DNA of 64,000 nt, taken from Gordonia bronchialis DSM 43247. Lineage in GTDB: Bacteria; Actinomycetota; Actinomycetes; Mycobacteriales; Mycobacteriaceae. Position 1 is the first letter of the stretch. Every line of letters begins with the position of its first letter. Where the stretch lies: NCBI RefSeq assembly GCF_000024785.1, contig NC_013441.1, forward strand, positions 558,001 through 622,000, given 5' to 3'. Below the pieces are notes generated by a model. That model worked only from the letters and a program-made list of their open reading frames with translations. It was not told the origin of the DNA and searched no databases. This document shows positions 14,376 through 46,982 of this stretch, piece after piece. Both the position numbers and the translations under genes were made by a program.

Positions 14376-14507
14376 ATGTCACCCATCCAGAGCGTGCGCC
14401 ACACCGTCGACCGCCTCGGCGCCCACACGATGCGCGTCATCGCCGACGAGGACGGCATGTCCACGGCGGAATACTCCATAGAACCTAATTACACCCTGCG
14501 ACACTGA
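14376..14507 (+). pseudogene. Flp/Tad pilin (DUF4244), 5' part, cut by the element
   Basis: ATG 14376 has a strong GGGAGGA six bases upstream. The first 31 codons plus Glu-Tyr encode the basic leader and the start of the class IV pilin core (DEDGMSTAEY). After Tyr33 the frame runs into element DNA and stops after ten foreign residues, giving a 43-residue product without the hydrophobic helix. The missing 40 residues, preceded by a second Glu-Tyr, are intact at 46854-46982. Joined, they give a 73-residue Rv3656c-like pilin. The break falls at the conserved Glu+5/Tyr+6 after the prepilin cleavage site. Confidence 0.9.
14469..14477. other. Left attachment site (attL) crossover region
   Basis: The pilin reading GAA-TAC departs from its expected continuation right after 14474. 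Compared with the right end (GAG-TAC-GCG at 46854-46862), the shared bases are TAC, so the serine integrase core lies within 14472-14474. Host sequence is to the left, element to the right. Confidence 0.75.
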
Positions 14508-14589
14508 GACCTTCTCGGCGCCTACCGCGATTGACTGTGACAACATAAAGGGCTGTGCCGCAGTAGATTTCGTCGGTACAATCGACACT

Positions 14590-14985
14590 ATGAGCACCCG
14601 ATCCAGCGCGCCCCGCGAATCCGCCATCGAGCGGCATCTCGTCCAGCGCTGCGCCGAGATCGGCGTCCTCTGCCTGAAGTTCACGTCACCAGGGCACGTC
14701 GGCGTACCCGACCGAGTCCTGATGGGCCACGACGCCAACGACGACTCGGTAACCCTGTTCGTCGAGGTCAAGCGGCCCGACGAGGCGCCCCGCCCCAGCC
14801 AGGTCGCGATGATCCGGAGGATGCGCGACCACGGCCAGCACGCGGTGGTCGCCGACAGCAAGGCATCCGTCGACGCTCTCATCAGTGACTACTTCACTCA
14901 CCCCACGGTTCCCATCGCCAAACGCGACCCTCACGCAGCCCCGCTGCCCGGTCGCACCGGGGCCGTCATCACCGCACTGAGATAG
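14590..14985 (+). CDS. VRR-NUC domain protein
   Basis: 131 residues. Residues about 10-100 match the small virus-type replication-repair nuclease fold: an N-terminal helix with Glu (SAIERHLVQRC), the strand GVPDRVLM with catalytic Asp, and FVEVKRPDEAPRPSQ with the Glu-x-Lys and downstream Gln. Such proteins act on branched DNA or as Holliday-junction nucleases. TACAAT at 14577-14582 lies seven bases before the ATG, suggesting a leaderless transcript. It is the first gene inside the element. Confidence 0.8.
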   Translation: MSTRSSAPRESAIERHLVQRCAEIGVLCLKFTSPGHVGVPDRVLMGHDANDDSVTLFVEVKRPDEAPRPSQVAMIRRMRDHGQHAVVADSKASVDALISDYFTHPTVPIAKRDPHAAPLPGRTGAVITALR

Positions 14986-15011
14986 ACACCACCGGCGCAG
15001 CCGGCGGCAAG

Positions 15012-15041
15012 GACCTCCTCGACACCCATGTCGAGGAGGTC
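15012..15041 (+). promoter_or_regulatory. Hairpin that buries a Shine-Dalgarno site
   Basis: GACCTCCTCGAC (15012-15023) pairs perfectly with GTCGAGGAGGTC (15030-15041) across a six-base loop. The right arm contains AGGAGG, seven bases before the ATG at 15047. In the RNA the ribosome site would be closed. A terminator role is possible but only TTCT follows. Confidence 0.55.
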
Positions 15042-15046
15042 TTCTC

Positions 15047-15430
15047 ATGTCCGCACCCACCACCACCGTCACCGATCCGTGGATCGAACGCCAGATCCAG
15101 GCCCATCACCTGTCGCCCGGCGCCCGCGGGCTCACCCGCGAGGAGGCCGCGCACCAGCACAACAGCACAAACGCCCTGACCCCCGAGGACGTCGACTACC
15201 TCTACACCCCGGGTCAGGCCCAGGTCGTCGCCCGCGACGCGCTGGCCGTCATCGGCATCGAGGTCGACCCCGACACCCGCGTCGTCCTCACCGACGGTCG
15301 CGCCGGGCCACGGTGCAGCTACTACCTGCTCAACCCTGGCCAGGTCGAGGCCGCCGTCGAGCAGCACCGCCTAACCACCAGCGAGAATCTCTCCGCCGAC
15401 GCACTTATCGCGAGCTTGCCGTGGGAGTGA
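15047..15430 (+). CDS. Hypothetical element protein
   Basis: 127 residues, not recognised. It begins SAPTTTVTDPWIERQIQAHH and ends with Trp-Glu; no signal peptide or membrane segment. Codons are GC-rich at the third position, as in a real gene. AGGAGG seven bases upstream lies in a stable hairpin, so translation may be gated. Its stop overlaps the next start, followed by a further overlapping gene and ArdA, so these three are one operon. Confidence 0.6.
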   Translation: MSAPTTTVTDPWIERQIQAHHLSPGARGLTREEAAHQHNSTNALTPEDVDYLYTPGQAQVVARDALAVIGIEVDPDTRVVLTDGRAGPRCSYYLLNPGQVEAAVEQHRLTTSENLSADALIASLPWE

Positions 15431-15612
15431 CCGTCACCGCCGCCGAGGCCCTCATCACCCGCGCCTGGGACGTCGCCGAGGCTCACCGCCTCACCGGCAG
15501 TCACGCCCTCGTGCAGGCCATTTGGACCCTTGAGTACGCGCTGGACCACAACACCACCGACACCGGCCATGCCGCCGCCCGCGTTGAGACCCTGATCGGA
15601 GAGCTGCCATGA
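15427..15612 (+). CDS. Small hypothetical protein before ardA
   Basis: 61 residues from GTG 15427, which overlaps the previous stop (GTGA). Entirely helical by composition (AEALITRAWDVAEAHRL). Its own stop overlaps the ardA start (ATGA). A GTG two codons earlier is also possible. No known family. Confidence 0.5.
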   Translation: MTVTAAEALITRAWDVAEAHRLTGSHALVQAIWTLEYALDHNTTDTGHAAARVETLIGELP

Positions 15613-16169
15613 CCACCGCCCACGACCGCCCCGCCGTCGACGAGCCGCGAGTCTGGATCGGGTGCTTGGAGTGCTACAACGCCGGCCGACTCGTCGGCGA
15701 CTGGTACGACTGTGCCGACGCTGCCGAGGTCACCACCTCCCAGCTGCACGGTCGGCCGATCCGCGAGCACACGCACGAAGAGCTATGGTGCCTCGACACC
15801 GACAACATCCCGGTGGACCGCGAGATGTCGCCGGTGGAGGCCGGCGAGTGGGCCGAGACGTACGACGAGGTCGGCCCCGAGCAGTGGCCAGCACTGTGCG
15901 CCTGGGTCCGGTCGGGGAGCTACGTCGCTCAGGGCGACAGCGACCTTCCCTGTGTCGGCGACTTCGAGGAGCGCTACGCGGGAGAGTGGGATAGCTTTCG
16001 CGACTACGCATTCCAGCTCGCTGAGGATCTCGCATTGTTCGACGGCCTCGACGACGACCACGTCGCCGTCAGGTACTTCAACTGGGACAGCTGGATCTCC
16101 GACCTCGAATCCGACTTCACCGTCGTTCCCACAGGTCACGGAGGCGTCCACGTCTTCCGGAGCCTGTGA
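15609..16169 (+). CDS. ardA: ArdA-family antirestriction protein
   Basis: 186 residues, the usual ArdA length, very acidic (DNA-mimic character). The N-terminal YNAGRLVGDWYDC and the later FEERYAGEWDSFRDYAFQLAEDL followed by VRYFNWDSWISDLE match the conserved ArdA blocks. ArdA blocks type I restriction enzymes by mimicking bent DNA, protecting incoming elements after conjugation. It sits near the left end of the element in an operon with two small genes. One caution is that the acidic domain alone is shared by other DNA mimics. Confidence 0.8.
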   Translation: MTTAHDRPAVDEPRVWIGCLECYNAGRLVGDWYDCADAAEVTTSQLHGRPIREHTHEELWCLDTDNIPVDREMSPVEAGEWAETYDEVGPEQWPALCAWVRSGSYVAQGDSDLPCVGDFEERYAGEWDSFRDYAFQLAEDLALFDGLDDDHVAVRYFNWDSWISDLESDFTVVPTGHGGVHVFRSL

Positions 16170-16170
16170 C

Positions 16171-16329
16171 ATGGAGGATCTCTACCCGTCCGAGCCCTCG
16201 ATCCTGCGGTGCCCGACGTGCCGCCGCACGGCCCTCCACGACAAGCGGGGTTGCCGGCTGTGCCGCAATGAGGCGCTCGACCGCCTCATCGACAAGACCG
16301 CCGGGCAGCCTGGTGTGGATGACAGTTGA
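16171..16329 (+). CDS. Small zinc-ribbon protein
   Basis: 52 residues. Two CxxC pairs (RCPTCRR and GCRLCRN), 14 residues apart, form a probable zinc ribbon; a helical tail follows. ATG is two bases after the ardA stop, so it is likely the last gene of that operon. Function unknown; such proteins often bind nucleic acid. Confidence 0.55.
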   Translation: MEDLYPSEPSILRCPTCRRTALHDKRGCRLCRNEALDRLIDKTAGQPGVDDS

Positions 16330-16639: not shown

Positions 16640-16648
16640 GGAGGGACC

Positions 16649-18814: not shown

Positions 18815-18925
18815 GTGCCCATACCTGCCGGGCGCTAGTTCCATTCTCCCTTACTCTAGCGGCGCATGCAAGGGATCGGCTTGACTCGCGTAATCTGCCC
18901 GCGAAACATCCTCGGTGGTGCTCGC

Positions 18926-19057
18926 TCAGTCGGACTCGTGCCGGTACCACGGCGGCGCGTCGATGCCCACCTCCCACAGCTCGCGTTCGTGCGCCAGCAG
19001 CGACTCGATCGCCTCCCACATGCCGGGCGGCGGGTCGGGCGGCAGCGGGTCATCCAC
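18926..19057 (-). CDS. Small acidic protein downstream of vsr
   Basis: 43 residues from GTG 19057, nine bases after the vsr stop. It reads MWEAIESLLAHEREL then WEVGIDAPPWYRHESD, compact and codon-biased like its neighbours. Probably cotranscribed with vsr. No family known. Confidence 0.5.
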   Translation of the reverse strand: MDDPLPPDPPPGMWEAIESLLAHERELWEVGIDAPPWYRHESD

Positions 19058-19066
19058 GCGCCCAAC

Positions 19067-19534
19067 CTATCCCGGGCCGGGACCGTCGGCCGTTCGTCGG
19101 TCCACAGGCGCATGGGCGCGGACCTCGTCCGCGACGGCGTCGGCGACCTCCGCCGCCGGTTCGTGCTCCCAGAACCGCAGCACGGTCCAGCCTGCCCCCT
19201 CCAGCATCGCGGTTACGCGCCTGTCCCGCTCGCGATTCCCCTCGATCTTCGCCGACCAGAAGTTCGCGTTCCTCCGCGCGGGGCGGTAGTGATCCGGGCA
19301 CTTGTGCCAGTAGCACCCGTCGATGAACACCGCGACCCGCGCTCGGATGAACACGATGTCGGCGCGATTCCGTCGGGACTCGGGCAGGGGCGCGAGGTCG
19401 ACCCGGTAGCGCAGCCCCATCGCGTGCAGGAGCCGGCGCACCTCCAGCTCCGGCCGGGTGTCGCGGCGGCGGTTGCCCCGCATCGAGGCCCGCGCCGCGG
19501 GGCTCGACGCCCAGCTCTCGCCCATACCAGCCAT
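19067..19534 (-). CDS. vsr: Very short patch repair endonuclease
   Basis: 155 residues. Nicks 5' of the T in T:G mismatches made by deamination of 5-methylcytosine, protecting genomes that carry a C5 methyltransferase. Visible: TRPELEVRRLLHAMGLRYRV, the catalytic Asp region NRADIVF, and VAVFIDGCYWHKCPDH with zinc-binding Cys/His and the intercalating Trp. Start could also be ATG 19558. It is divergent from the methyltransferase, the usual Vsr arrangement. Confidence 0.92.
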   Translation of the reverse strand: MAGMGESWASSPAARASMRGNRRRDTRPELEVRRLLHAMGLRYRVDLAPLPESRRNRADIVFIRARVAVFIDGCYWHKCPDHYRPARRNANFWSAKIEGNRERDRRVTAMLEGAGWTVLRFWEHEPAAEVADAVADEVRAHAPVDRRTADGPGPG

Positions 19535-19606
19535 TGTCGCCGATCGATCCGAGGACATGCCGTGACCCCGCGTGGAATCCCGACCCCGACTGGCTATCCT
19601 CGAGGC

Positions 19607-20806
19607 ATGCGAAGTGTCGAGCTGTTCGCCGGCGGGGGCGGTCTGACGCTCGGGACCCACCTGGCCGGGTTCACCACCGAGGTCGTGGCCGAGTGGGACC
19701 GGTGGTCCTGCGACACCCTGCGCGAGAACCGCGACGGCGGCTACCCACTCGTCCGCGACATCGACGTCGAGGAGGGCGACGTCCGCTATGTCGATTGGTC
19801 GAGCGTCCCCGAGGGAATCGACCTGGTCAGCGGGGGGCCGCCGTGCCAGCCGTTCTCCGCCGGCGGCAAGGGCGCCGCCGCCGACGACAAGCGCGACATG
19901 TTCCCGGCCACCGCCGAGGTCATCCGCCAACTCCGTCCCCGCGCGTTCATCGTCGAGAACGTCCGCGGTCTGACCCGCTCGGCGTTCTCCGACTACTACA
20001 GCTACATCCAGCTGCGCCTGGGCCACCCCGAGATCGTGGCCAAGGCGGGCGAATCCTGGGGTGACCACTTCGCGCGTCTGCAAGCCGAGCACACCTCCGT
20101 GCGCTCCGACCTCCAGTACAAGGTAATGCCGACCCTGGTCAACGCCGCCGACTATGGTGTGCCACAGCAGCGTTGGCGCGTGTTCTTCGTCGGTTTCCGT
20201 TCCGACGTCGACGCCGAGTGGAGCTTCCCGTCGCCCACGCACTCCGCGGCGGCGCTGCGCGCCGCGCAGGACAACGGCTCCTATTGGGAATGGCACAAGG
20301 TCGCCAAGAAGTACCGAACCCCCACGGTGCGGACCGCCGCGCTCGTCGATGGCCCGCTCAAGCCGTGGCGGACGGTCCGCGACGCGCTGCGCGGGTTGCC
20401 CGAACCCACGCGCAACGGGAGTACCAAGTACCTCAACCACGTGCTGCAGCCGGGAGCCAGGTCCTACCCCGGACACACCGGCTCCTACATCGACGCCCCG
20501 GCCAAGGCGCTCAAGGCCGGCGTCCACGGCGTGCCCGGCGGCGAGAACATGCTGCGCGACGTCGACGGCTCGGTGCGGTACTTCACCGTCCGCGAGGCGG
20601 CCCGCCTGCAGACCTTCCCCGACCGCTACCGACTGCACGGTCCGTGGTCCGAGGCGATGCGCCAACTCGGCAACGCGGTTCCGGTGATGCTGGCCGAGAC
20701 CGTGGCCCTGTCGGTCCGCGAGCACCTGGACGTCGCCGACTTCAACGCGGCCAGGGCTCAGGCGGTGTCGCGCCAGAGGGCCAAGCGCGGTTCGGCGAGC
20801 GCGTGA
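19607..20806 (+). CDS. C5-cytosine DNA methyltransferase
   Basis: 399 residues. Motif I ELFAGGGGLTLG, motif IV GGPPCQPFSAGG with the catalytic Cys (about residue 81), motif VI ENVRGL, motif VIII QQRWRVFFVG and motif X QLGNAVPVMLAE are all intact, so it should be active. It protects DNA against the GIY-YIG nuclease whose GTG start overlaps its stop. Eco29kI-type systems recognise CCGCGG; that specificity for this enzyme is an inference from the partner nuclease. Confidence 0.93.
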   Translation: MRSVELFAGGGGLTLGTHLAGFTTEVVAEWDRWSCDTLRENRDGGYPLVRDIDVEEGDVRYVDWSSVPEGIDLVSGGPPCQPFSAGGKGAAADDKRDMFPATAEVIRQLRPRAFIVENVRGLTRSAFSDYYSYIQLRLGHPEIVAKAGESWGDHFARLQAEHTSVRSDLQYKVMPTLVNAADYGVPQQRWRVFFVGFRSDVDAEWSFPSPTHSAAALRAAQDNGSYWEWHKVAKKYRTPTVRTAALVDGPLKPWRTVRDALRGLPEPTRNGSTKYLNHVLQPGARSYPGHTGSYIDAPAKALKAGVHGVPGGENMLRDVDGSVRYFTVREAARLQTFPDRYRLHGPWSEAMRQLGNAVPVMLAETVALSVREHLDVADFNAARAQAVSRQRAKRGSASA

Positions 20807-21408
20807 GCGCGCCGTTCAACCCCCTCGACATGGGCAACCTCGCGAAATCGGTCGTCAACCAGATCGAGGAGATGGAACCGGTCCCGCTCGACGACGTCAA
20901 GGCCTTCTACGGGGCCGGTGTCTACGCGCTGTATTATACCGGCGATTTCCCCGCCTACGCCGAACTGGCCGCCGCGAACGCCGAGTCGCTGGTTCAGCCG
21001 ATCTACGTCGGCAAGGCCGTGCCCAAGGGCGGTCGCCGCGGCCTGGAAGCCGTGTCGCACACCGACACCAAGACACTGTCGTCGCGAATCCGCGAGCACG
21101 CGAAGAGCGTCCGCGCCGCCGAGAACCTCGACATCGCCGACTTCCGCGCGCGCTGGCTCGTCGTCGAGGACATCTGGATCGCCCTCGGCGAGTCCGCGAT
21201 GATCCGCCGCTACCGGCCCGTGTGGAACGCGGTTCTCGACGGCTTCGGCAATCATGATCCCGGCAGCGGCCGCGTCAACGGCAAGCGCTCTATGTGGGAC
21301 ACCCTGCATCCGGGGAGGCCGTGGGCCACCAAATACCCCGAGCGCGACGACACCGCCGCCCAGATCGCCCAGGACGTCACGCAGTACATCGCCGACCGCC
21401 TCAACTGA
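20803..21408 (+). CDS. Eco29kI-type GIY-YIG restriction endonuclease, copy 1
   Basis: 201 residues, near the 214 of Eco29kI. GTG overlaps the methyltransferase stop. The GIY-YIG core is visible: GVYALYYTGDF, PIYVGKAV, SSRIREHAKS with the catalytic Arg region, GESAMIRRYRPVWN with the metal-binding Glu, and LHPGRPWA. It is a type IIP homodimeric nuclease and forms, with the methyltransferase and Vsr, a complete restriction-modification unit. Confidence 0.88.
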   Translation: MSAPFNPLDMGNLAKSVVNQIEEMEPVPLDDVKAFYGAGVYALYYTGDFPAYAELAAANAESLVQPIYVGKAVPKGGRRGLEAVSHTDTKTLSSRIREHAKSVRAAENLDIADFRARWLVVEDIWIALGESAMIRRYRPVWNAVLDGFGNHDPGSGRVNGKRSMWDTLHPGRPWATKYPERDDTAAQIAQDVTQYIADRLN

Positions 21409-21429
21409 GCGAGGCCCCCGACGGGCCCC

Positions 21430-22344
21430 TCAGCTCTCGTCCTCGTCATCCTCGACGATCGGCGGCGCCTCGCCCCGAGTCATGCTGTCCACCAACCTCT
21501 TGACGACGTCATCCGCCTTCGCGATCGGCGGGTTATCGGCGAAGTGTTTGGCGATCAGCGCCTCGATCTCTGCACGCTCCATTTGGTTCTTTGTCGGTCT
21601 CGTCGGGTCCTTGTCGTTCGCCCAAGGGCGTCCCGGATGCAGGGTGTCCCACGGAGACCTTCCGTTGTTCCGCGTGTCCGCGTCATCACCGTTCTTGCCG
21701 AACCCATGGACGTATCTCACCGCCCTCCCGGTCACCGGGTCTTTGGACGCCGCCCGCTTGTTCCACACCGGGCGGAACAGGTTGATCAGAGCACCCTCGG
21801 TCACCGGCTCCCAGCCGGGGGCGATGACTAGGCGCCGATAGTCGAAGTCATCGACGTCGAGACCGTGGCCCCAGCCGATGGATTTGAAGTGCTTGGTCAG
21901 GCGGTCGGTGAGCGCGACACCCTGCTCGACGAGAACGCCGGACGTGGGCGTCTTCGTCTTCCCGACATAGATGGGCGTCTGAGTGCCGAGCAACGGTCGA
22001 TACAGGTCATTGTCACCCCGGTAGTACAGCGCATAGACCCCGGACCCATAGGTCTTGACGATGTCGTTGAGGGGTTCGAGATCCTGATGCACCAGGCCCA
22101 CCGCCGCGACGAGCCCAAACAGTCCGGGGTCGGCGGGATTGAACACGCCCGCCGGCATCTCGTGTCTGTACAACTGGCCATCCACGGTCCTGATGAGGTG
22201 ATCGCGCGCCGCCACGATCGCCGCCCGGTCGTTCTTGACGGGGGCGTCCCAACCGTCGAGTTGTCCGCTTAGGGTCACCGCCGAGTTCAGCGCGTCGATC
22301 AGCTCCTGGATCGCCGCGGTCTTCGTCAGGTTCTTCCGTCCCAT
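21430..22344 (-). CDS. Eco29kI-type GIY-YIG endonuclease, copy 2, with N-terminal extension
   Basis: 304 residues. The same core as copy 1 (GSGVYALYYRGD, TPIYVGKTKTP, EGALINLFRPVWN, SPWDTLHPGRPWA) follows about 100 extra N-terminal residues that are not recognised. It converges on copy 1 with 21 bp between stops. It could be a second nuclease sharing the same methylation protection, or one with a different target and no cognate methylase. The sequences differ too much for a recent duplication. Confidence 0.82.
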   Translation of the reverse strand: MGRKNLTKTAAIQELIDALNSAVTLSGQLDGWDAPVKNDRAAIVAARDHLIRTVDGQLYRHEMPAGVFNPADPGLFGLVAAVGLVHQDLEPLNDIVKTYGSGVYALYYRGDNDLYRPLLGTQTPIYVGKTKTPTSGVLVEQGVALTDRLTKHFKSIGWGHGLDVDDFDYRRLVIAPGWEPVTEGALINLFRPVWNKRAASKDPVTGRAVRYVHGFGKNGDDADTRNNGRSPWDTLHPGRPWANDKDPTRPTKNQMERAEIEALIAKHFADNPPIAKADDVVKRLVDSMTRGEAPPIVEDDEDES

Positions 22345-24666: not shown

Positions 24667-25239
24667 ATGGCCCTCGTCGGACTGGTGCGGGTGAGCACCG
24701 ACAAGCAGGAGACCCGTCGCCAGCACGACGCGCTCGACGCTGCGTGCGTGAAGGTGTTCGAGGAGAAGGTCTCCGGCAAGCTCGGCGTCGACGACCGGCC
24801 GGGCCTCAGGGCCGCGCTGGACTACCTGCGCCCCGACGACATGCTCGCGGTGCTGGAGGTCGACCGACTCGGCCGCAACCTCCTCGAAGGCCTCATCGTG
24901 CTGACCGACCTGTTCGAGCGGGGCGTCGGCGTGAAGGTATTGGAGGGCGTCGCCGCCGGCGAGCACACCGAACGGTCGCTGATCCTCGACCTGGCCCTCG
25001 CATTGGCCGAGGATCGCCGCCGCGACATCAGCCGCAAGACCCGCAGCGGACTGGAGGCGGCACGTCGCCGAGGCAAGGTCGGTGGCCGGCCGAGCGTCGT
25101 CGACGACGACAAGCGTGCCGCGATCCTGGCCCGCCGGGAGCGCGACGAGTCGATCCGCGAGATCGCGGCGGGCGTCGGGGTCTCAGTGGGCACTGTGCAC
25201 CGAGTCATCACCGCCGATGGAGCCAGGCAGACAGCATGA
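24667..25239 (+). CDS. Small serine recombinase (resolvase/invertase)
   Basis: 190 residues. Catalytic Ser in VGLVRVSTDKQ (residue about 11), LEVDRLGRNL, and the E-helix region EDRRRDISRKTRSG lead into a C-terminal helix-turn-helix (SIREIAAGVGVSVGTVHRV). Size and layout are those of Tn3-type resolvases. On a replicating element it could resolve dimers. A strong terminator follows. Confidence 0.92.
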   Translation: MALVGLVRVSTDKQETRRQHDALDAACVKVFEEKVSGKLGVDDRPGLRAALDYLRPDDMLAVLEVDRLGRNLLEGLIVLTDLFERGVGVKVLEGVAAGEHTERSLILDLALALAEDRRRDISRKTRSGLEAARRRGKVGGRPSVVDDDKRAAILARRERDESIREIAAGVGVSVGTVHRVITADGARQTA

Positions 25240-33293: not shown

Positions 33294-33741
33294 TGCCCGA
33301 TGTCGCTGTACCGCAAGGACTCCGGCCCCTACAAGCCGAAGCCGACACCGTTCGGGGGTTTCATCGACGGGGCGCGCGCGATCACCGCCCCGCACCTGCT
33401 CTGCGTCGGGCCCACCGGGCGTGGCAAGTCTCGGCGCGTCCTGGGACCGGCACTGCTCATGTGGGAGGGCCCCGGCGTCGCGATCTCGTCGAAGCCCGAC
33501 TTGATCGAGCTGGCGATCGAGAAGCGTCTGGGCATGGGCGGCCACGGCAAGACCTATGTGCTCGACCTGTCCGGCAAGGTGCCGGCGAGTGTCATGCCGG
33601 ACGGGGCGGAAATGGTCGTGGCCGATCCTGTCGCCCTGATCACCGACGACGACACCGCGATCGACATGACCGAGATCCTGCTGCGCACTTCGGGATCGAG
33701 CGCCGGTGGCGGCGACTCAGCCAAAAAGGACCCATTTTTTG

Positions 33742-35139
33742 GGCTCTCCTGACCGATCCGTGGGTCATGACCGGCCGGGGAGGACTGGTCGGTGGCCGCC
33801 GAGGTTGAGCATGGCCAAGGCGATGAGAGCCTCGGGAGACCTGAATCCGAAGGCAACGCGGGTGATCAGCCGGATCTTGGTGTTGACCGACTCGATGCGA
33901 CCGTTGGACAGACCGTGCTCGATCGCTGCGAGGATCGAGGCCTGGTGTTTGACGATGCGACGCTGCAGCTCCACGAAGGCGGGAATCCGGCAGCGCCGCG
34001 CCCACCGGATCCAGACCTCGAGCGCCTCCGCGGCCTCGGCGTGGGGCAGCTGGAAGACCAGTCGCAGGCCTTCTTTGAGCAGGTAGGCACGGTGCAGCCG
34101 CGGGTCGGTCTTGGCGACCCAGGCCAGCTTGGCCTGCTGCCTGACCGTGAGGTTCTCGGGGTTCTTCCACAGCGCGTAGCGGGCATGCTTCAACGCCTTC
34201 GCGTGTCCCGATGCGCGGCCGGCACGGCGCTGGGTGGCCGCTCCGCGGGCCTGGTTCCAGGCAGCTCGGCGGACCTCGTCGAGGGCGTCGGTGGCCCACC
34301 GGACGACGTGGAAGGGGTCGGCGCAGCGGACCGCGTGGGGGCAGTGGTCGGCGACCACAGTGCTGATCCAGTCCGCACCGTCGGCGGAGACGTGGGTGAT
34401 CTGGCTGCACCGCTCCTCACCGAGGGCGTCGAAGAAGCCCTCGAGGGTGGCCTTGTCCCGGCCGGGGGCGGCCCAGACCAGCCGACCGGTGTCGTGGTCG
34501 ACGACCACGGTCAGGTAGCGGTGGCCGCGCTTGTAGGAGATCTCATCGATCCCGATCCGGCGTAGGTCGGCGAACCGGTCATGCAGCTTCTCGACGTCGG
34601 CCCAGACCCGGGTGATGATCGCCCCCACGGTGCGCCAGGCGATCCGCATCAACTCGGTGACCGCGCTCTTGGAGCACTGGGTGGCCAGCCAGGCGACCTG
34701 CTCATCGAACCCGGTGGTGTGTCCGGCGCCATGCCGGGCCCAGGGCACCGCGCGGACCGTGGGCCCGTGCTCGCGGCAGTTGACCCGCGGTGCGTCGGCC
34801 TCGAGATGGACCTGGATGGTGCCCAGGTCCAGCGCCCGCCACCGACGACGTCCCTCGCCACGGTCGTACCAAGGAGACCGTCGCTGACATCGTCCGCAGC
34901 GAGCTCCCGCACGTCGCGTGGGCCGAACGCAGGCCACCAGAGTCTGCTCGTCCTCGTCGAACTCGATGTCCTCCACGACTGTCTTCTCGACCCCCAACAG
35001 GGCTCGCCATAAGGTGGCGTTCTGCACGCCGTTCTCCGCTCACTGGTTCCTGGTCCTAGACAGCTCAGAAACCTAGACAGGGAACGGCGTGCTCACGTTT
35101 CAGGCGCGCTCAACCACCCACGGATGCGTCAGGAGAGCC
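33742..35139. mobile_element. ISL3-family insertion sequence, 1398 bp
   Basis: Terminal inverted repeats of 24 bp with two mismatches (GGCTCTCCTGAC at both tips). The 8-bp target duplication ATTTTTTG is present at 33734-33741 and 35140-35147, typical of ISL3. One transposase gene fills it. Perfect duplication and an intact gene suggest recent insertion. Confidence 0.95.
33765..35027 (-). CDS. ISL3-family transposase
   Basis: 420 residues from GTG. An N-terminal zinc-finger region (GARCGRCQRR; PRVNCREHG) and helix-turn-helix precede the DDE domain: Asp in RIGIDEISYKRGHRY, Asp in SADGADW, Glu in GRIESVNTKIRLI. Full length and intact, so probably active. Confidence 0.95.
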   Translation of the reverse strand: MQNATLWRALLGVEKTVVEDIEFDEDEQTLVACVRPTRRAGARCGRCQRRSPWYDRGEGRRRWRALDLGTIQVHLEADAPRVNCREHGPTVRAVPWARHGAGHTTGFDEQVAWLATQCSKSAVTELMRIAWRTVGAIITRVWADVEKLHDRFADLRRIGIDEISYKRGHRYLTVVVDHDTGRLVWAAPGRDKATLEGFFDALGEERCSQITHVSADGADWISTVVADHCPHAVRCADPFHVVRWATDALDEVRRAAWNQARGAATQRRAGRASGHAKALKHARYALWKNPENLTVRQQAKLAWVAKTDPRLHRAYLLKEGLRLVFQLPHAEAAEALEVWIRWARRCRIPAFVELQRRIVKHQASILAAIEHGLSNGRIESVNTKIRLITRVAFGFRSPEALIALAMLNLGGHRPVLPGRS

Positions 35140-36080
35140 ATTTTTTGAAGACTCGTCCGTGGCACCGCTGGCCGGGCTGTTGCGCGCCGCTGGCGAAGAC
35201 GGCATCCGATGGGTCCGACGGGCGGTGGGCCGCATAGAGCCACCGACGCCGGAGGACAGGGCCACCCCCTGCTGGCTCAACGCCATCGGGCGGCTCGAAC
35301 AGCTCGGAAGCATGATGCTCGCCGAGGAGCTGGTCAATACCGCGGCTTTCTCGGATCGCTTGCGCGACTCCATCCAGGCGACGATGAAAGTTGCCGTGGC
35401 GCCCTGGTGGCGCGAGGCCGTCGTCGGGCCGACCGACGCCAAGCCGTTCATTCCCGCGATGCTCGAAGACCCGCGAAGCACGCTGTTCATGGTCGCTCCG
35501 GCCGACGGCATCGCCGCCGCGGCGGCCGTCGGCGTCGTCGACGCGATCAGCGCCCACTGGCGCGATGGCCAGACACGACCAGTTCCGTTGCAGCACTTGC
35601 TGATCGTCTGTGATGAGATGTGCAATACCTTGCCCTGGCAAAAACTCCCGATCGTCATAACCGAATCACGAAGCATGGGCATTTCCGTCCTAGCCGCGGT
35701 GCAAGACACACAGCAGTTCGCCCGACGCTACAACCGCGAGATCATGGAGGAGCTTCGCCGAGTCTTCCCGAGCATCCTCATCCTCTCCGGCAGCGAGGAG
35801 AAGGAACTCCTCGACAAGGCGGCATGGGCCGCCGGACGGACCGAGCGTCACAAACTCTCCCGCGACCACGCCGGAAAGCAGTCCCAGTCCTCGGAGATGG
35901 CACCGGCCTATGAGGGGAGCGACCTGCTTCCCAAGCGCATCGGCGAGGGCCGGCTGCTACGCGGCACCCGGCCCGGCGCCAGCCCCGACGATCCGATCGA
36001 ACCCGCCGGGCTGCTCGTCGACCTGTTCGACATCAGCCAACTCGACATCGACATCGACGTCGCCTGAATCCCGGCAGCGA

Positions 36081-36830: not shown

Positions 36831-37559
36831 TCACTTCCTGTAAATCCGCGCCAGCGCGTGACCGGCCTTGTAGACGCCAAAGCCGAGCACGCCGAGCGCG
36901 GCGAACCAGCCCGAGGCGATGGCCGCGCGCATCGGCCAGCCGTCCGCCGTCTCGAAGCCGCCCCAGACCCACCGCGACAGCGGGCCGATCCCGGTCACCT
37001 CGGCGGCGGGGACCACGAGGAACAGCAGCAGCGCGATCACCACCGCGTACGGGATCGCGGCCAGCGCCAGCTTGGTCAGCCCGGCCACCGCCAGCGAATC
37101 GTTCAACCGCGCCGCCCGGTCGCCTACCCGATCCAGACGATCGGTCGCCCGGTCGAGCGCGGCCGCCACCTCGTCCGCGTGCTGCACCGCGCGCTGTGAC
37201 ACCTCATCGCCAAGATTGGCCACGAGGTGTTTGCCGACCGCGGTGCTGTTCAACAACGGGTTGAGGTCGGCGATCCCCGCCTCAATCACCGATTTCACGG
37301 CCTCCGTCATCGCGTCCAACTGCGTCGGCGACAGCTCGGTCCCGGAGCGGGGTCGCTCGTTCAGCGCATTGATCCGCTCCTCCAGGCCCGCCACCCGATC
37401 GGTCAGCGTCTTCGTCGCGGCCTCGCGCGCCTCCACCGCCGACGTGAGCGACTTCAGCCCGGCCACCGCCTCGTTCTGCGCCGCGGCCAGCTCCTTCAGC
37501 AGCTCCGCCGAACCGCTCGATCTCGATCCCGTCGAGGTCGATGATGTCGTCGAGGTCAT
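36831..37559 (-). CDS. Coiled-coil protein with two C-terminal membrane helices (MobB-like)
   Basis: 242 residues. ATG 37559 follows AGGAGGAGG. Coiled coil about residues 20-70, then helices, then two membrane segments (YAVVIALLLFLVVPAAEV and IASGWFAALGVLGFGVYKAG) and a basic tail LARIYRK. Position after the relaxase and topology fit mobilisation proteins that tether the relaxosome to the membrane. Its first 278 bases overlap the relaxase frame. Confidence 0.55.
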   Translation of the reverse strand: MTSTTSSTSTGSRSSGSAELLKELAAAQNEAVAGLKSLTSAVEAREAATKTLTDRVAGLEERINALNERPRSGTELSPTQLDAMTEAVKSVIEAGIADLNPLLNSTAVGKHLVANLGDEVSQRAVQHADEVAAALDRATDRLDRVGDRAARLNDSLAVAGLTKLALAAIPYAVVIALLLFLVVPAAEVTGIGPLSRWVWGGFETADGWPMRAAIASGWFAALGVLGFGVYKAGHALARIYRK

Positions 37560-38967
37560 CCCGCTCCTCCTCCTTCGCTGATTCGTTGATGTCGATGCGG
37601 TCGATGCGGTCCACCCGCACTTCGCCCAGGTCGAGCGGCTCGACCGAGCGCACCCGCTCGGCCCTCTCGGTATCGAGCGCGACCGCGACCCGCCCGCGCC
37701 TGCCGGACCGGACCCGGACGGTGTCGTCCCCGGCGATCTCCACCCCGTGCTCGGCGGCCACCGCCACCAGGTCGTCGCGGTCGAGCGCGTCGGCGAGCGC
37801 CGCGTCCACGGCCTCTCGCGCCCGCCCCTCATACGTGCCGCCCGATTCCCGGACCCGCGCGGCGAAAGCATCGGCGTCGCGCTCCCACGGAGGCCGCCCG
37901 CCCGGGGTCAAATACACCGGCACCGGCCGTTCCGCCGGCGCCGGAGGCGCGGGCACCGGCGCTCGTTCGGGCACGTCGAGGGTCTCGCCCCGCCCGATCC
38001 GTTCGGCGTTGATCGCGCACTGCGCCTCGACCTCGGCCCGGGTGAAGTCGTTGCCCAAGCCGTCCCGGCCCTTTCGGCTGCGCGCCGACGCCTTGTGCTC
38101 CACACCGTCGTCGCTCACCCACGCATAGGAGACACCGCTCGCACCAGTCACACGGGTGTGTACTCCGTCGGCGGCCAACCGCGCGGTGTAGTCATCCCAC
38201 GAGTCGGCCAGCGCCCGCGCCGCACGGAGCTTGACCCGCACCTCGTCGTGGTTGCTGTACCCACGGCCGTCGGGATCGGCCCGCTGGACCACGTCCCTCG
38301 TCGTCGCCCGGTCGCCGCGACCCTTGGCCGCGCTCCGGCACTCCTCGACATATCGAGCGTTGTCGTAGCCGAAGTGTTCGAGGATCTGCTCGTCGGTGCC
38401 ACCAGGGCCGTGACGGATCTGGTGGATGTTTTTCTTCGCCCCGTCGATCGCGCGGCCGGCGGCATAGTGCCGTTCGTGCCGTTCGTGCGGCGTGCCATCC
38501 TTGTCGACCAGCTCCAGCACCGCTTCACGGCTGGAGACATTTGCGATGATGCAATGCGTATGCCATTTGCCCGGCTGCCAGACTCGCTCGCCGTCGACCT
38601 CGACCCATCTGCCGTTGTCGCGCTGGGTCACCAGCTTGGCCATGTGACCCGGGAACCGACGCCTCGCCAGCTCTCGGACCATCGTGTGCTGACGGTGCCC
38701 GGCCTGCGGGTCGCGCTGGTCGGCCTCCTCATGCGTCTGGCTGACGATCAGGTGATACGCCTCGTGCTTCAGTTTCTCCTTGCCGAACCGGCGGGCGTTC
38801 GCGCGGACTCGATCAACGAAGTGCTCCGGCGTGCAGTCGCCGATCGTCGAGACGAACTCATCACGTTGCGTCGGCTCCGGAGAATCCGCGTCCTTCGCCG
38901 CGATGCTGCCGGTATAGCGGTCGAGCGCTTCGAGGTTCCCGGCCGGAGAGATCTCGGTGATCGCCAT
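37282..38967 (-). CDS. Relaxase / mobilisation nuclease
   Basis: 561 residues as read. The N-terminal 230 residues form the MobA/VirD2-type domain: AYHLIVSQTHEEAD and the metal-binding histidines in GKWHTHCIIANVS; the nucleophilic Tyr is not assigned with confidence. It nicks oriT and leads the strand out. ATG overlaps the mobC stop. The frame stays open 278 bases into the next gene, where it turns Gly/Arg-rich, so the real C-terminus may be near 37540. Confidence 0.85.
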   Translation of the reverse strand: MAITEISPAGNLEALDRYTGSIAAKDADSPEPTQRDEFVSTIGDCTPEHFVDRVRANARRFGKEKLKHEAYHLIVSQTHEEADQRDPQAGHRQHTMVRELARRRFPGHMAKLVTQRDNGRWVEVDGERVWQPGKWHTHCIIANVSSREAVLELVDKDGTPHERHERHYAAGRAIDGAKKNIHQIRHGPGGTDEQILEHFGYDNARYVEECRSAAKGRGDRATTRDVVQRADPDGRGYSNHDEVRVKLRAARALADSWDDYTARLAADGVHTRVTGASGVSYAWVSDDGVEHKASARSRKGRDGLGNDFTRAEVEAQCAINAERIGRGETLDVPERAPVPAPPAPAERPVPVYLTPGGRPPWERDADAFAARVRESGGTYEGRAREAVDAALADALDRDDLVAVAAEHGVEIAGDDTVRVRSGRRGRVAVALDTERAERVRSVEPLDLGEVRVDRIDRIDINESAKEEERDDLDDIIDLDGIEIERFGGAAEGAGRGAERGGGRAEVAHVGGGGARGRDEDADRSGGGPGGADQCAERATPLRDRAVADAVGRDDGGREIGD

Positions 38968-40848: not shown

Positions 40849-43068
40849 TCACTCTCCTGCGTCCGGTGCGTACGGATTGTTGATGAACGTGTAGCCGGGG
40901 GCGAACGGATTGCACCCGGGTTCGGCCGGTACGGGCGGCGTGGGCCGCTTCACCCGCTTGGGTTTCGACCTCGGCGTCGTGGGCTTGGCCGGCGGTGCGG
41001 GCGTCGGCCGCTCTCCCGTGGCCACCAGGCCGCCGACCACCGCCGGGCCCATCGATGCCTGATCGACCGGAGGGTCGACAGGGCCGTCGGTGTCGGCTAA
41101 TGGATCGGCGAACCCTACGTTGACCACGTCGACGTCGTCGCGGCGCAACAGGCCGCGGTAGTTGGCCTTGAGCATGTCGCCGGGGATGGTGGCCCGGCGG
41201 GTCCGGTAGTTCTTGTCGCCGGGCTTGGTCGAGGTGTCGCCCCAGTTGACCAGGGAGTACTCGACGATCAGCGGCTCGGGGTCGACCATGCGCCGGGCCG
41301 GACGATGCTGGGCGGTGTGGTCGTCGCAGTACCACTGCGAGGTGGGATCGGCGTCGACGAGCTGGACCAGCTCGGAGATGAACTTGTTCTTGCCGATCGG
41401 CTTGGAGTTGGGCATGTAGCGGCCCATCCAGGCCACGTAGAACTCGTGCAGGAACGGGAACGGCAGCAGATCCCACTGGAAGAGCATCTGGTTCTCGTTC
41501 CAGAACGCGCGCACGGGGTCGTTGGACTCGCGGAACTGGTTGAGCGCGGCCTGCACGGCGGCGGGCTCGGGCAGCTCGTAGTAGTCCATGGTGAGCACCC
41601 GGCGGAGCACGTACTCGAGCACCTCGGGCCGGCGGAGGTAGTCGTCCTTGATGTATTTGCGCTCGGCGCCGGTGAAGCACTTCTCGAAGGGCACGAAGAT
41701 CTGCCGGCGGTAGATCGACTCCGACTTGTCCTTGAAGACGGGCTCGTCGTTGAGGCACTGCACCATGAAGCCGAAGTGCTGGTGGGCGATCGGCGCCTTG
41801 TACTTGCGGTTGATGGTGATCACGTCGTTGGTGATCACCGCCTTGAAGTTGGCGGCCTTCTCCACGAAGGTGCCCACGTCGTTCTCGTCGACGAGGATGG
41901 CATTGGCCCTGGTCAGCGGCTCCAGCAGAAAGTCCTTGCCGAAGTCGGCCAGCGGGATGGAGGCGTAGTTGCCCACCCCGAGCATGTTGCGCATGAGCGA
42001 CAACAGCGTGCCCTTGCCGTTGTTGCCCTTGCGCGAATAGAAGAACATGGCTTTGTTCCAGCTGTTGTAGGGCCGCGCGATGGCGCCGATGCCCTTCCAC
42101 AGCAGGTCGACGACCTCGGGATCGTCGGACAGGCTGGCCATCCAGCTCTCGACGTCCCACTGGTCGCCGTCGGGGGTGTCGAAGACGGGGTTCTGCGCAT
42201 CGGGGTTCCAGTCGACGTCGAGCTTGGCCAGGAAGACGTACTTCGGATCAAATTCGTGGAACACCGGCGAGCCGCCGTTGTAGTCGACCACGCCGTTGCG
42301 GCAAGCGATCAGGTCGCGGTCGCCGCCGCGGGTGACGGTGGGCGCGAAATCACCCATCGCGGCGAGCACGTCGGAGAACTCCTTGACCGACATGTTCGGC
42401 TGGTAACGGCGCGCGATCTTGCGCAGGTGGCCGACCTCGGAGCGGTAGGTGCCGAAGTGCTCGCTGGTGGGGTCGTCGTCGTAGGCGGCCAGGATGTTGA
42501 GGTCGGGATCGGTGTTGGAGGTCGAGGGCGTGATCGACACGACCGAGTAGAGAGCGCCCATCAGGCGGGCGACCTCGGCGAAACCGAGCTGCGTGAGCAT
42601 GTTGCGCTTGGTACCGATCAGCGCCGGCGGATTGTCCTCAGAGCCCTTGATCAGGGCGTTCTCATACGCGATGCGGTCGTTGATGCGGCCGACGAGATCC
42701 TGGGCCACATCGCGGGTGCCCTGCTTGGCGCATTCGGCGCGCTGGGCGGGGGTGCCCTTGGTGCCGCCGGAGACCATGTGGCGCAGCGTCGGCAGGTTGT
42801 CGGGCGAGAGGTAATCATCGGTGACCGTGGCCGCGAGGATGGCGGTCGGGGTGGCATAGGGGATGCCGTCGCGGTTACGCCCGGGAGCGGTGCTGGCCGA
42901 CCCCCGGAGGGACTCTTTGACATCCGCGACGCGCCGTAGCAGCGCTTCCTCGGGATCTGTCGGCCCGCCCGGAACAGCCTCGACGACGTCGTCGGGGAGG
43001 TCCGGAGCAGAAATTGAATCGAGATCAACGGCGTCGAAATCGACGCCGTTGCTTTCATTGTTATACAC
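40849..43068 (-). CDS. Primase-helicase replication protein (SF3, P4/D5 type)
   Basis: 739 residues from GTG 43068. The C-terminal helicase has Walker A RKGNNGKGTLLSLMRNM, Walker B region ANAILVDENDVG and motif C NDVITINRKYKAPIAHQH with FMVQCLND. The N-terminal 300 residues carry the D5-N region (GDRDLIACRNGVVDY). It probably initiates at the iteron origin downstream of its operon. No Shine-Dalgarno is visible; the start may be leaderless. Confidence 0.88.
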   Translation of the reverse strand: MYNNESNGVDFDAVDLDSISAPDLPDDVVEAVPGGPTDPEEALLRRVADVKESLRGSASTAPGRNRDGIPYATPTAILAATVTDDYLSPDNLPTLRHMVSGGTKGTPAQRAECAKQGTRDVAQDLVGRINDRIAYENALIKGSEDNPPALIGTKRNMLTQLGFAEVARLMGALYSVVSITPSTSNTDPDLNILAAYDDDPTSEHFGTYRSEVGHLRKIARRYQPNMSVKEFSDVLAAMGDFAPTVTRGGDRDLIACRNGVVDYNGGSPVFHEFDPKYVFLAKLDVDWNPDAQNPVFDTPDGDQWDVESWMASLSDDPEVVDLLWKGIGAIARPYNSWNKAMFFYSRKGNNGKGTLLSLMRNMLGVGNYASIPLADFGKDFLLEPLTRANAILVDENDVGTFVEKAANFKAVITNDVITINRKYKAPIAHQHFGFMVQCLNDEPVFKDKSESIYRRQIFVPFEKCFTGAERKYIKDDYLRRPEVLEYVLRRVLTMDYYELPEPAAVQAALNQFRESNDPVRAFWNENQMLFQWDLLPFPFLHEFYVAWMGRYMPNSKPIGKNKFISELVQLVDADPTSQWYCDDHTAQHRPARRMVDPEPLIVEYSLVNWGDTSTKPGDKNYRTRRATIPGDMLKANYRGLLRRDDVDVVNVGFADPLADTDGPVDPPVDQASMGPAVVGGLVATGERPTPAPPAKPTTPRSKPKRVKRPTPPVPAEPGCNPFAPGYTFINNPYAPDAGE

Positions 43069-43167: not shown

Positions 43168-43368
43168 TTATGCGGCCGGCGCGGCAGGCGAATCGGCCCC
43201 GGCTTCGGCCGGGACGGCCGCGCGCGGAATCCGATAGGTCGCACCCTTTGCGATCTGGTGGACGCCCGGGATGAGCCCAGCCCGAATCCGGTCGTAGACG
43301 GCCCATTTCGAGATCCGCATCAAGGCGGCGTATTCCGAAACTGTCAAGTATCCCGCCGTTTTCGCCAT
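43168..43368 (-). CDS. AlpA/excisionase-type HTH protein
   Basis: 66 residues. TVSEYAALMRISKWAVYDRIRAG is a winged helix-turn-helix of the excisionase/MerR-like type with a short Ala/Pro tail. Located upstream of rep on the same strand. Candidate recombination directionality factor or rep regulator. Confidence 0.7.
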   Translation of the reverse strand: MAKTAGYLTVSEYAALMRISKWAVYDRIRAGLIPGVHQIAKGATYRIPRAAVPAEAGADSPAAPAA

Positions 43369-43561
43369 TGTCGCCCCGCTTCCATTCGTCGAATTCCTGA
43401 CCCCAAATCTACCCACAGAAACACCCTTGTCCACGGCATCGCCGCAGGCAGTGGCCGATTCTGTCCTCGTCAGGGCATCGATTTCCGACCCGTCACAAAG
43501 AACTCGACTTTCACATTTACCCAGGTCGCAGAAAATGGGACTTTCTTCATATGAATTCACT

Positions 43562-43990
43562 TCAGGCCTCCGACGCGCGCGCAGAAACACCAGTGTGATC
43601 CTGGTCATAATCACGTCGGTGAGTAGCCCGGAGTCCGTCGCCGACCGCTCGCGCGACAACGCCGATCTGCGCATCGGTCAGCGGCGGTGCGGCGGCCACC
43701 AGCGCGGCGACGGCGGCATCCACCTCGCTCGGCACCGTTGGCGGGATCGAGGGTCGGCAGCGCCCGGCCATCCAGGCGGCCCAGTCGGCCTCGGTGACGC
43801 GCCACCCCGTGCTGACGAAGACGGCGGGTAGACGGCCGGACCTGATCGCGCGCAGCACTGTAGCCCTGCACGGCGCACCAGGCAGAGCTATGTAATGGGC
43901 GACGGGACGGTAGCCGGGGTCGGCGGTGATGGCGATGGATTCAAAAACGGCAGGCAAGGCCCACTCCTCGGAGTTGGGCACCCTGCACAT
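43562..43990 (-). CDS. Hypothetical HTH-containing protein
   Basis: 142 residues from ATG 43990. The middle part GAPCRATVLRAIRSGRLPAVFVSTGWRVTEADWAAWMAG looks like a helix-turn-helix with wing of the Xis/AlpA kind. The start lies in a small hairpin (CCCTGC/GCAGGG). Possible third small regulator of the element. Confidence 0.5.
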   Translation of the reverse strand: MCRVPNSEEWALPAVFESIAITADPGYRPVAHYIALPGAPCRATVLRAIRSGRLPAVFVSTGWRVTEADWAAWMAGRCRPSIPPTVPSEVDAAVAALVAAAPPLTDAQIGVVARAVGDGLRATHRRDYDQDHTGVSARASEA

Positions 43991-44637: not shown

Positions 44638-44646
44638 GAAGGAGAT

Positions 44647-45076
44647 GAGAGCGGCGGTTGAGGTGGCCGACACGGGAAGAGATGAGAGCGGCGGTTGAGG
44701 TGGCCGACACGGGAAGAGATGAGAGCGGCGGTTGAGGTGGCCGACACGGGAAGAGATGAGAGCGGCGGTTGAGGTGGCCGACACGGGAAGAGATGAGAGC
44801 GGCGGTTGAGGTGGCCGACACGGGAAGAGATGAGAGCGGCGGTTGAGGTGGCCGACACGGGAAGAGATGAGAGCGGCGGTTGAGGTGGCCGACACGGGAA
44901 GAGATGAGAGCGGCGGTTGAGGTGGCCGACACGGGAAGAGATGAGAGCGGCGGTTGAGGTGGCCGACACGGGAAGAGATGAGAGCGGCGGTTGAGGTGGC
45001 CGACACGGGAAGAGATGAGAGCGGCGGTTGAGGTGGCCGACACGGGAAGAGATGAGAGCGGCGGTTGAGGTGGCCG
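44647..45076. repeat. Perfect 37-bp tandem array, 11.6 copies
   Basis: Eleven full identical units plus 23 bases of a twelfth; unit begins GAGAGCGGCGGTTGAGGTGG. No spacers, so not CRISPR. It stops five bases before the stop codon of the integrase gene. Each unit contains GGGAAGAG then ATG, opening a 17-codon frame that closes in the next unit. Identity of all copies implies recent amplification or selection. Confidence 0.95.
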
Positions 45077-45081
45077 TCGTC

Positions 45082-46815
45082 TTACTCCACCGAATCGCCC
45101 TCGTCAGGATCTCCCTGCGTCCAATGGATCTGAGCGAGTACATCCGGCAGCGACTCCTCCGCCCGCTTCAAAACCGGATCATCGACGGACCATGCCCAGC
45201 CGCCCCGCGCTTTTAGTTCCGCCGCCGATGCCACCCACCCCGGCAGTGCCCCCGACTCCAAATTCGGCGCGCCCATGTCGATCTCGAAAGAATCGATCTT
45301 CGTCCGACCGCCCTCGGTGCTCGACAACCACGTCGCTCGTATCCCGTGCTCCCGCAACCAAGCCGTCCGCGTCGCCGAGTCCGATCTTTCCCACCACGCC
45401 CGCACGGTCTCACCGGTGCCCTCGTACCGCCACGACGGCGCTTCGACGGGCCGGACGCGCAACTCCTCCTGCCGTTCCGTCAGCGCTCGGATGCGGCCAT
45501 CCAGCCGTTCACGCTGCGGCGTGCCGCGCCTGAACGCCCCCGTGCCGAGTTGGTCGGTGAGGTCGCCGAGCAGCTCGTCGACCTCAGCCAGCTCGCTGCG
45601 CGAATCGTTGCCGCTGAACCAGACTCGCGTCATCCGCTCCATCGAGCCCAGCCGCTCCAGGACGTGCGCCTCGACCTCGTGGTCGGCCCAGTCGAGCGGC
45701 ACGCTCCTGTTGTCGCACGGACCGAGCGCCCCGGCCGCACCCGAACGGTCTTGGGCGAACGCGCAGCGATACCGCGGCTTGCGGCCCGGTCCGCCCGTGA
45801 GCCGGTATGCGGGTCTGCCACACTCGCCGCAAAACAGGACCTGTAAGAGCAATCCCGACGTCACCGTCGCGGTGCGATCGACCTCGCGCGACCGCAGCGC
45901 CGCGCCGAGACGGTCGAAAACCGCTCGGGTCAGGATCGGCTCGGCCCGCACCACCGGAGCCCCCGTCTCGTCGGTGACGACGAACTCAGGACCTAAGATC
46001 CGCTGTCCCTTGGCGTCACGCTGAATCTCCCCCTTCGCGTCGAGCACGGGGTCGCGGGTGACGATCTGACCCAACAGCGTTCGCGACAGCAAGCTCTCTT
46101 TCATCCTCTGGCTCGACCACGCGTAGCCCTTGACCTCCCGTCCCTTGACCTGGGCGAATCGGTCTTTTGGCGTCAGTACCCCGCGCTTGGTCAGGTCCGC
46201 GGCAATCGGCCGCAGCCGCTCGCCAGCCAGGACGCGCTCGGCGACCTCCTGGATGACCTCGACCTGCTGCGGATCTTGAACGAGCCGCCACACTTTGTCG
46301 TCGCCGCGCTCGGGCACGTACCCCCACGGCGGCACCCCGCCGCGCCACTTGCCCGACCTGATGTTGTGCGTCGACGCCGAGGCGTTACGGGCGCTGATCG
46401 CCGCCAGCTCCATCTCCGCCGTTTTGGCGACGAGCATCGCGATGATGTCACCGAACGGCGCGGTCAGGTCCAGAAACGCCTCGGTCGCGCTCACGATCGC
46501 GACGTCGCGCTCCTGTCCCCAACGGATCACGTCGGCGAGGTCAAGGAGCCGCCTGACAAGCCGGTCCATGCGATACATGACGATCACGTCGATCTCGTTG
46601 TGTCTGTTGGCCAGCCAAGGACCGAGCTGCGGCCGATCGAAAGGCGTTGTCGCACCGGCACTTACATCGAGGTCTTCGGCGACGCCTACAACCTCGTATC
46701 CGCGCTGATCGCACAACTCGCGACACGCCTCCAGTTGGCGCTCCGGCGATGTGGTCGCGTCGGTGACCCGCGACAGTCGGACGACGATCAGCGCCCTCGG
46801 CCTCGATTTCCCCAT
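45082..46815 (-). CDS. Large serine integrase
   Basis: 577 residues. Catalytic Ser in IVVRLSRVTDATTSPERQ (about residue 15), VMYRMDRLVRR, and EMELAAISARNA lead to the recombinase domain (SGKWRGGVPPWGYVP), the zinc ribbon (LFCGECGRPAYR ... YRCAF ... CDN) and a coiled-coil C-terminus. It integrated the element into the pilin gene; its start is about 40 bp from the right junction, so attP lies just upstream. Intact. Excision needs a directionality factor; small HTH genes at 17548, 43168 and 43562 are candidates. Confidence 0.95.
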   Translation of the reverse strand: MGKSRPRALIVVRLSRVTDATTSPERQLEACRELCDQRGYEVVGVAEDLDVSAGATTPFDRPQLGPWLANRHNEIDVIVMYRMDRLVRRLLDLADVIRWGQERDVAIVSATEAFLDLTAPFGDIIAMLVAKTAEMELAAISARNASASTHNIRSGKWRGGVPPWGYVPERGDDKVWRLVQDPQQVEVIQEVAERVLAGERLRPIAADLTKRGVLTPKDRFAQVKGREVKGYAWSSQRMKESLLSRTLLGQIVTRDPVLDAKGEIQRDAKGQRILGPEFVVTDETGAPVVRAEPILTRAVFDRLGAALRSREVDRTATVTSGLLLQVLFCGECGRPAYRLTGGPGRKPRYRCAFAQDRSGAAGALGPCDNRSVPLDWADHEVEAHVLERLGSMERMTRVWFSGNDSRSELAEVDELLGDLTDQLGTGAFRRGTPQRERLDGRIRALTERQEELRVRPVEAPSWRYEGTGETVRAWWERSDSATRTAWLREHGIRATWLSSTEGGRTKIDSFEIDMGAPNLESGALPGWVASAAELKARGGWAWSVDDPVLKRAEESLPDVLAQIHWTQGDPDEGDSVE

Positions 46816-46853
46816 GTTGGATCATCCTACAAGGGCATGAATAACGACTTACT

Positions 46854-46862
46854 GAGTACGCG
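46854..46862. other. Right attachment site (attR) crossover region
   Basis: GAG-TAC-GCG is the point where pilin coding sequence resumes. Only TAC is shared with attL at the crossover, consistent with the 2-3-bp cores of serine integrases. Confidence 0.75.
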
Positions 46863-46982
46863 ATCGGCACCATCGCGGCCGCGGCCTTCGGCGCCATCCT
46901 CTACACGGTCGTCACCGGCGACAACATTGTCAGCGCGCTCACCGGCATCATCGGTAAGGCGCTCAACACCTCGGTCGGGTGA
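46854..46982 (+). pseudogene. Flp/Tad pilin (DUF4244), 3' part
   Basis: 42 residues starting Glu-Tyr, with the hydrophobic helix AIGTIAAAAFGAILYTVVTG and the C-terminal NTSVG. There is no start codon in frame: a TAA lies four codons upstream. It cannot be made unless the element leaves. The tadE start overlaps its stop, so downstream translation may also suffer. Confidence 0.9.

Follow-up and report, generated by a model that had tools for sequence, protein, structure and literature searches.

What has parted the two halves of the pilin gene in the Tad pilus locus of Gordonia bronchialis DSM 43247, and would the gene become whole again if the intervening DNA were to leave? The locus lies in a stretch of 64,000 nucleotides (contig NC_013441.1, positions 558,001 to 622,000), referred to here as the window, in which 32,385 bp interrupt a gene for a DUF4244 Tad pilin at the conserved Glu-Tyr codons, Glu-Tyr being present in both halves. 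Our reading, to which we give a probability of about 0.82, is that a 32.4-kb element carrying its own integrase splits the gene, that it was likely inserted at a palindromic TA dinucleotide that may be entered in either direction, and that excision would restore the pilin. The pilin halves, the attachment sites at the junctions (attL and attR) and the integrase lie at the following positions of the window.

14376..14474, plus strand: N-terminal part of the pilin (Tad/Flp pilin, DUF4244), codons 1-33, from the ATG at 14376 to the TAC ending at 14474 (...DEDGMSTAEY)
14448..14497, no strand: attL, with host arm 14448-14471, TA core 14472-14473 and element arm 14474-14497
45082..46815, minus strand: large serine integrase, 577 amino acids, its start codon 42 bp from the core, inside the right end
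46833..46882, no strand: attR, with element arm 46833-46856, TA core 46857-46858 and host arm 46859-46882
46854..46982, plus strand: C-terminal part of the pilin, codons 32-73 and stop, from GAGTAC at 46854 to the TGA ending at 46982; EYAIGTIAAAAFGAILYTVVTGDNIVSALTGIIGKALNTSVG

The frame of the N-terminal part runs ten codons into the element (SIEPNYTLRH) and meets a stop ending at 14507; the C-terminal part has an in-frame TAA just upstream, with no start between this TAA and Glu-Tyr. Thus no full pilin can be read, and the C-terminal part is the sole DUF4244 match in the genome (one match, profile positions 17-54 of 54). The split is not a chance event, because relatives show the same break holding other elements. 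As the TA at 14472-14473 is shared with 46857-46858, the element measures 32,385 bp. The integrase next to the right junction contains Resolvase, Recombinase and zinc-ribbon domains in one open frame, as is typical of large serine integrases of 450-700 amino acids, and is 46-49% identical to phage integrases such as that of Severus among the 30 phage matches listed. The integrases of G. amarae NBRC 15530 and of genome G004 are both 94% identical to it. The original prediction is supported in part: the Tad pilin gene is indeed interrupted by an element with a serine integrase, and at a position from which precise excision would bring Glu-Tyr back into frame. The recurrence of such insertions, the palindromic TA and the two orientations described below go beyond what it had claimed.

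The distribution of broken pilin genes was followed in Gordonia and in a family sample of 401 genomes. DUF4244 was matched in all 59 Gordonia genomes, nearly whole in 49 and as a sole partial match in the other 10, and in 390 of the 401 family genomes. Among 21 low-scoring genomes outside Gordonia, chosen by eye from the family sample and searched again, 18 contained a partial pilin; the remaining three were set aside (G182, with a contig end in the pilin; G303, with a near-full match; G127, with weak matches). Genomes in which a full match is accompanied by another one (G042, G184, G190, G226, G362) stand outside these counts; in the Gordonia genome G042 the second match is at contig 210, 2898-3044. 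A large serine integrase was found at a broken pilin in 23 genomes besides that of the window, from more than one integrase lineage and in several genera. The family of the window integrase was present in 21 of the 401 genomes (12 integrase queries, E 1e-120 or better), and in 15 of these it lay at a split pilin, G288 being counted through its contig ends. Together with G032, G039 and G052, which came from the genus search and have no match row in the family search, this gives 18 integrases of the family at one site.

The crossover was placed by comparing junctions in 16 elements for which both could be read, G039 and G288 lying outside this set. All 16 had TA, the two bases that begin the Tyr codon, at both junctions. 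The base before it differed between the junctions in nine elements and the base after it in seven (both in G023, G052, G242 and G271); because of these differences, TA is the only dinucleotide common to the whole set. Compared as inverted repeats, the element arms agree at 10-20 of 24 positions (on average 13.9, against means of 5.7-7.1 after shuffling), with p 0.016 or less in 15 of the 16 elements. A two-base core common to attL and attR and flanked by inverted-repeat arms is the arrangement of large serine integrase sites, at which such arms are usual (PMC4111918). From these junctions we infer that TA is the true overlap. It is its own reverse complement, which is an unusual feature; a non-palindromic dinucleotide core is named as a requirement for integrase engineering in PMC13044945.

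The tyrosine at the crossover is part of the prepilin motif G/XXXXEY. Other serine integrases break the same gene elsewhere. A second lineage (G014, G179, G109, G100 and G144) cuts about 18 codons downstream, in a Val codon, where the core is probably GT, and in G144 (L140, L083) one pilin gene has been split twice, by a TA-site and a GT-site element. A third break point lies near the Gly-Asp-Ser codons in G237 (L203) and G218 (L192). The integrase of one of these genomes stands on the side opposite to that of the other, and no right junction was found in G218. Judged from these sequences, the repeated use of the pilin gene by serine integrases is a stronger finding than a pilus switch. A literature search found no published serine integrase inserting into a Tad or DUF4244 pilin, subscription papers being mostly outside its coverage, and where Flp pilin, integrase and attB were mentioned together, the pilin was phage cargo.

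Related elements occupy the TA site in both orientations. The integrase lies on the C-terminal side, antisense to the pilin, in 8 of 17 elements, and on the N-terminal side, in sense, in 9 of 17. No orientation was assigned to the integrases of G033, G066, G086, G224, G270, G343, Severus or G288; G288 could not be oriented because both of its ends read alike beside the core. On a tree of 25 integrases (G288 unlabelled) the label changes at least four times, and one clade with 100/100 support holds two elements of each orientation. Whole elements are turned: ArdA points the same way as the pilin in three of them (the window, G004 and G039) and the opposite way in G015, G023, G032 and G052. Such use of a single site both ways round by relatives is the pattern of orientation-blind integration, and the palindromic TA, as we infer from these genomes, would be its cause. 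All five GT-site elements share one orientation, as expected for a non-palindromic core. For Bxb1, the direction of integration is set solely by the central dinucleotide, according to the title of Ghosh 2003 as cited in PMC3783163.

In the mechanism that we propose, the integrase would recombine at the TA that opens the conserved tyrosine codon and so place the element within the pilin gene; a palindromic crossover would make insertion possible in either direction, and excision at the same TA would rebuild Glu-Tyr in frame and restore the pilin.

Several observations weigh against this interpretation. The window alone allows a core of TA or AC, and the choice of TA rests on the relatives. A DUF4244 search found no empty site in the genome of the window. 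An attP-like pattern was absent from the 401 genomes (two mismatches allowed) and from viral contigs (exact matches), although such a pattern partly misses variable real arms. Of the 21 related integrases, six were not tied to a pilin (G033, G066, G086, G270, G343 and G224), G224 having a broken pilin on a contig other than that of its integrase. The longest branches of the integrase tree (G054, G033 and G224) are placed uncertainly, comparison of the GT-site control (5 of 5) with the 9:8 distribution at the TA site gives only p 0.12, and the two orientations could stem from means other than two-way integration.

The integrated element would be likely to shut the pilus off, and its departure would restore it; the integrated state would also separate tadE and the gene next to it from the promoter of the pilin. 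The neighbouring genes and the cargo of the element, with open reading frame abbreviated to ORF, are as follows.

10018..13839, plus strand: upstream tad genes, a ParA-like ATPase followed by tadA, tadB and tadC, named by position only
14590..14985, plus strand: VRR-NUC-type nuclease, below the Pfam cut-off; endonuclease in PHROGs
15609..16169, plus strand: ArdA antirestriction protein, in a backbone common to several Gordonia elements
18866..22344, both strands: Eco29kI-type restriction-modification, made up of a C5 methylase and an endonuclease, with another Eco29kI homologue encoded on the opposite strand
24667..25239, plus strand: small serine resolvase/invertase (Pfam/PHROGs match)
33300..33752, plus strand: TraG/VirD4-type coupling protein, first piece, without a Pfam match of its own and assigned through the single ORF of relatives
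33742..35139, minus strand: ISL3-family insertion, with transposase at 33765-35027, 12-bp inverted ends and an 8-bp direct repeat
35159..36067, plus strand: coupling protein, second piece (TraG-D_C)
37282..38967, minus strand: candidate relaxase, MobA/VirD2-like (20 bits, Pfam cut-off 24.6)
40849..43068, minus strand: D5-type primase/helicase for replication (Pfam/PHROGs match)
43168..43990, minus strand: two overlapping HTH_17-type ORFs, 43168-43674 over the cut-off and 43562-43990 below it
44642..45076, no strand: perfect 37-bp tandem repeat, 11.8 copies, just past the integrase stop and before the HTH_17-type ORFs
46979..47751, plus strand: downstream pseudopilin genes, tadE-like at 46979-47383 (TadE 18 bits, cut-off 22.9) and the next ORF at 47380-47751

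The element looks mobilizable, a type predicted from these genes. Its coupling-protein gene is cut in two by the ISL3 insertion, and its own transfer is therefore likely to be impaired; in G004, G015 and G023 a single ORF corresponds to both pieces. The backbone, ArdA included, is shared in part with six other Gordonia elements (G004, G015, G023, G032, G039 and G052), and the element of G054 has a few different genes in common with it, among them the methylase. No match to head, tail or packaging genes was found among ten window proteins compared with PHROGs or among 28 element ORFs and the integrase compared with Pfam, and a prophage is not favoured, there being no structural matches in the ORFs scanned. 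Over 14475-39400, which makes up some three quarters of its length, no near phage DNA was found. A plasmid origin was also rejected; the candidate relaxase had no match in plasmid records and the integrase was less than 30% identical to plasmid proteins among the matches listed (12 of 16). The 37-bp tandem repeat is possibly an iteron-like origin. A repeat about 90-92% identical to it adjoins the integrase of G004, in which contigs end in the repeat. At 20803-22344 the two Eco29kI endonuclease homologues lie end to end, one with the methylase and the other on the opposite strand. The HTH_17-type ORFs would be directionality factors only as a guess; no directionality factor was identified, the one candidate compared with the Severus excisionase (43562-43990) showing no real match to it.

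Elements of a different kind share the site. Ten elements of other genera at the same position are about 10-13 kb long and match genes of the window element only by integrase, with the exception of a methylase in G228. Seven of the ten encode a major head protein, and G228 in addition a terminase small subunit and a head-tail adaptor; these head, adaptor and terminase proteins had no match in the seven other Gordonia elements searched. With such different cargo at one site, mobilizable-type elements and capsid-encoding satellites therefore share a landing site. Among the satellites of about 10 kb with capsid genes that other genera carry at this position of the pilin are those of L136, L191, L138 and L133, and IMG/VR lists two such loci as viral, L142 (which matches G144) and L191 (which contains the G288 contig). 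We take these small relatives to be like capsid-forming phage-inducible chromosomal islands (cf-PICI). A literature search returned no published phage satellite with a serine integrase in Actinobacteria, subscription papers again lying mostly beyond its reach.

Why this gene is hit so often is a separate matter from how it is split. The account towards which we lean by a small margin of confidence is that a near-universal pilin with conserved residues serves as a landing site and that silencing brings no gain; it is compatible with the mechanism proposed above and concerns only the reason for the recurrence. The presence of DUF4244 in nearly the whole family sample and the position of the crossover at conserved residues fit it, as do at least three break points in one short gene, but alone it leaves the choice of this gene by several lineages unexplained. 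The contrary idea seems doubtful to us: several integrase lineages would have converged on the Tad pilin because silencing pays, satellites and mobilizable elements shutting the pilus while resident and restoring it on leaving, with one lineage whose TA makes direction random.

Equally unlikely is a one-way inactivation, in which the cell can do without the pilin, the element has been domesticated or is stuck, and decay of the locus is under way. Decay is seen in G025 (L037, L063), where the tadA match is split and the pilin C-terminal part lacks its stop; there the tadC-region query had no match, and no N-terminal part was found by pattern. The insertion sequence in the window's coupling-protein gene and the failure of the DUF4244 and attP-pattern searches to reveal an excised form point the same way. 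Against it, the halves are open and full length in most carriers checked: C-terminal parts run 40-41 codons to a stop in 18 of 20 relatives, and 16 of 17 N-terminal parts, judged by a simple rule, are open and have both a start and a ribosome site. The integrase frame is open with its domains, and the pilin match is near-whole in most Gordonia genomes. In G028 an intact pilin stands beside a leftover junction: at L033, 3100-8940, the intact pilin, tadE and the next gene are followed by a transposase-like ORF (named by eye) and others, and then by a right junction with a second, partial pilin copy (its C-terminal part) and a second tadE pair.

The weakest alternative is the reversible pilus switch of the original prediction, in which the host would control and exploit excision and reintegration in the manner of active lysogeny. 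That excision at TA would rebuild Glu-Tyr is in its favour, as are the open halves. In G288 a contig with the N-terminal part, a 10,888-bp element contig and a contig with the C-terminal part meet precisely at the crossover and do not overlap, which would be expected of excised and integrated forms present together, and the element is held in IMG/VR as a separate 10,900-bp contig ending in the core. An assembler would give such contigs from a mixture of empty and filled sites, but they may also come from a repeat or another assembly effect, and the G288 element is of a different kind from that of the window. In the window's own genome no empty site was found by the DUF4244 search. Excision, which would make the gene whole, is plausible; with different element kinds at one site, other integrases elsewhere in the gene, a decayed locus in G025, no directionality factor and no attP by pattern, we consider a dedicated switch, regulated by the host, improbable.

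The element resembles several known systems. With Bxb1 and related mycobacteriophages, the actinobacterial prophages that use serine integrases, it shares the integrase family, an attP beside the integrase start, inverted-repeat arms and a protein-coding target; unlike them, it gave no match to phage structural proteins in the genes tested, and its family has a palindromic TA at the crossover, both orientations and a Tad pilin as target. Bxb1 has a GT core and inserts into groEL1. In Severus, two patterns built on the arms of the pilin site gave no hit for an attP of similar sequence. Coupling-protein pieces, a weak relaxase match, D5 primase/helicase, ArdA and restriction-modification are found also in integrative and mobilizable elements, from which it differs in that no conjugation apparatus was identified among the ORFs scanned and its coupling protein is split rather than intact. 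Capsid-forming phage satellites are represented at the same site by the relatives with a major head protein, but the window element, with no head, adaptor or terminase among the ORFs scanned with PHROGs, has only integrase and site in common with them. As in active-lysogeny prophages, such as S. aureus phiSa3 in hlb (PMC6597384), the target gene is inactivated upon integration and would be restorable by precise excision; what sets those prophages apart is regulated excision.

If the TA crossover is true, the core used by this natural family of serine integrases would contain no directional information, and the enzymes would offer a ready comparison for integrase engineering. Genomes with a split pilin may be misscored as having lost it. 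The choice of the pilin as target raises the question of how resident elements bear on surface adhesion in Gordonia and its relatives, and whether cells with and without the pilus may coexist.

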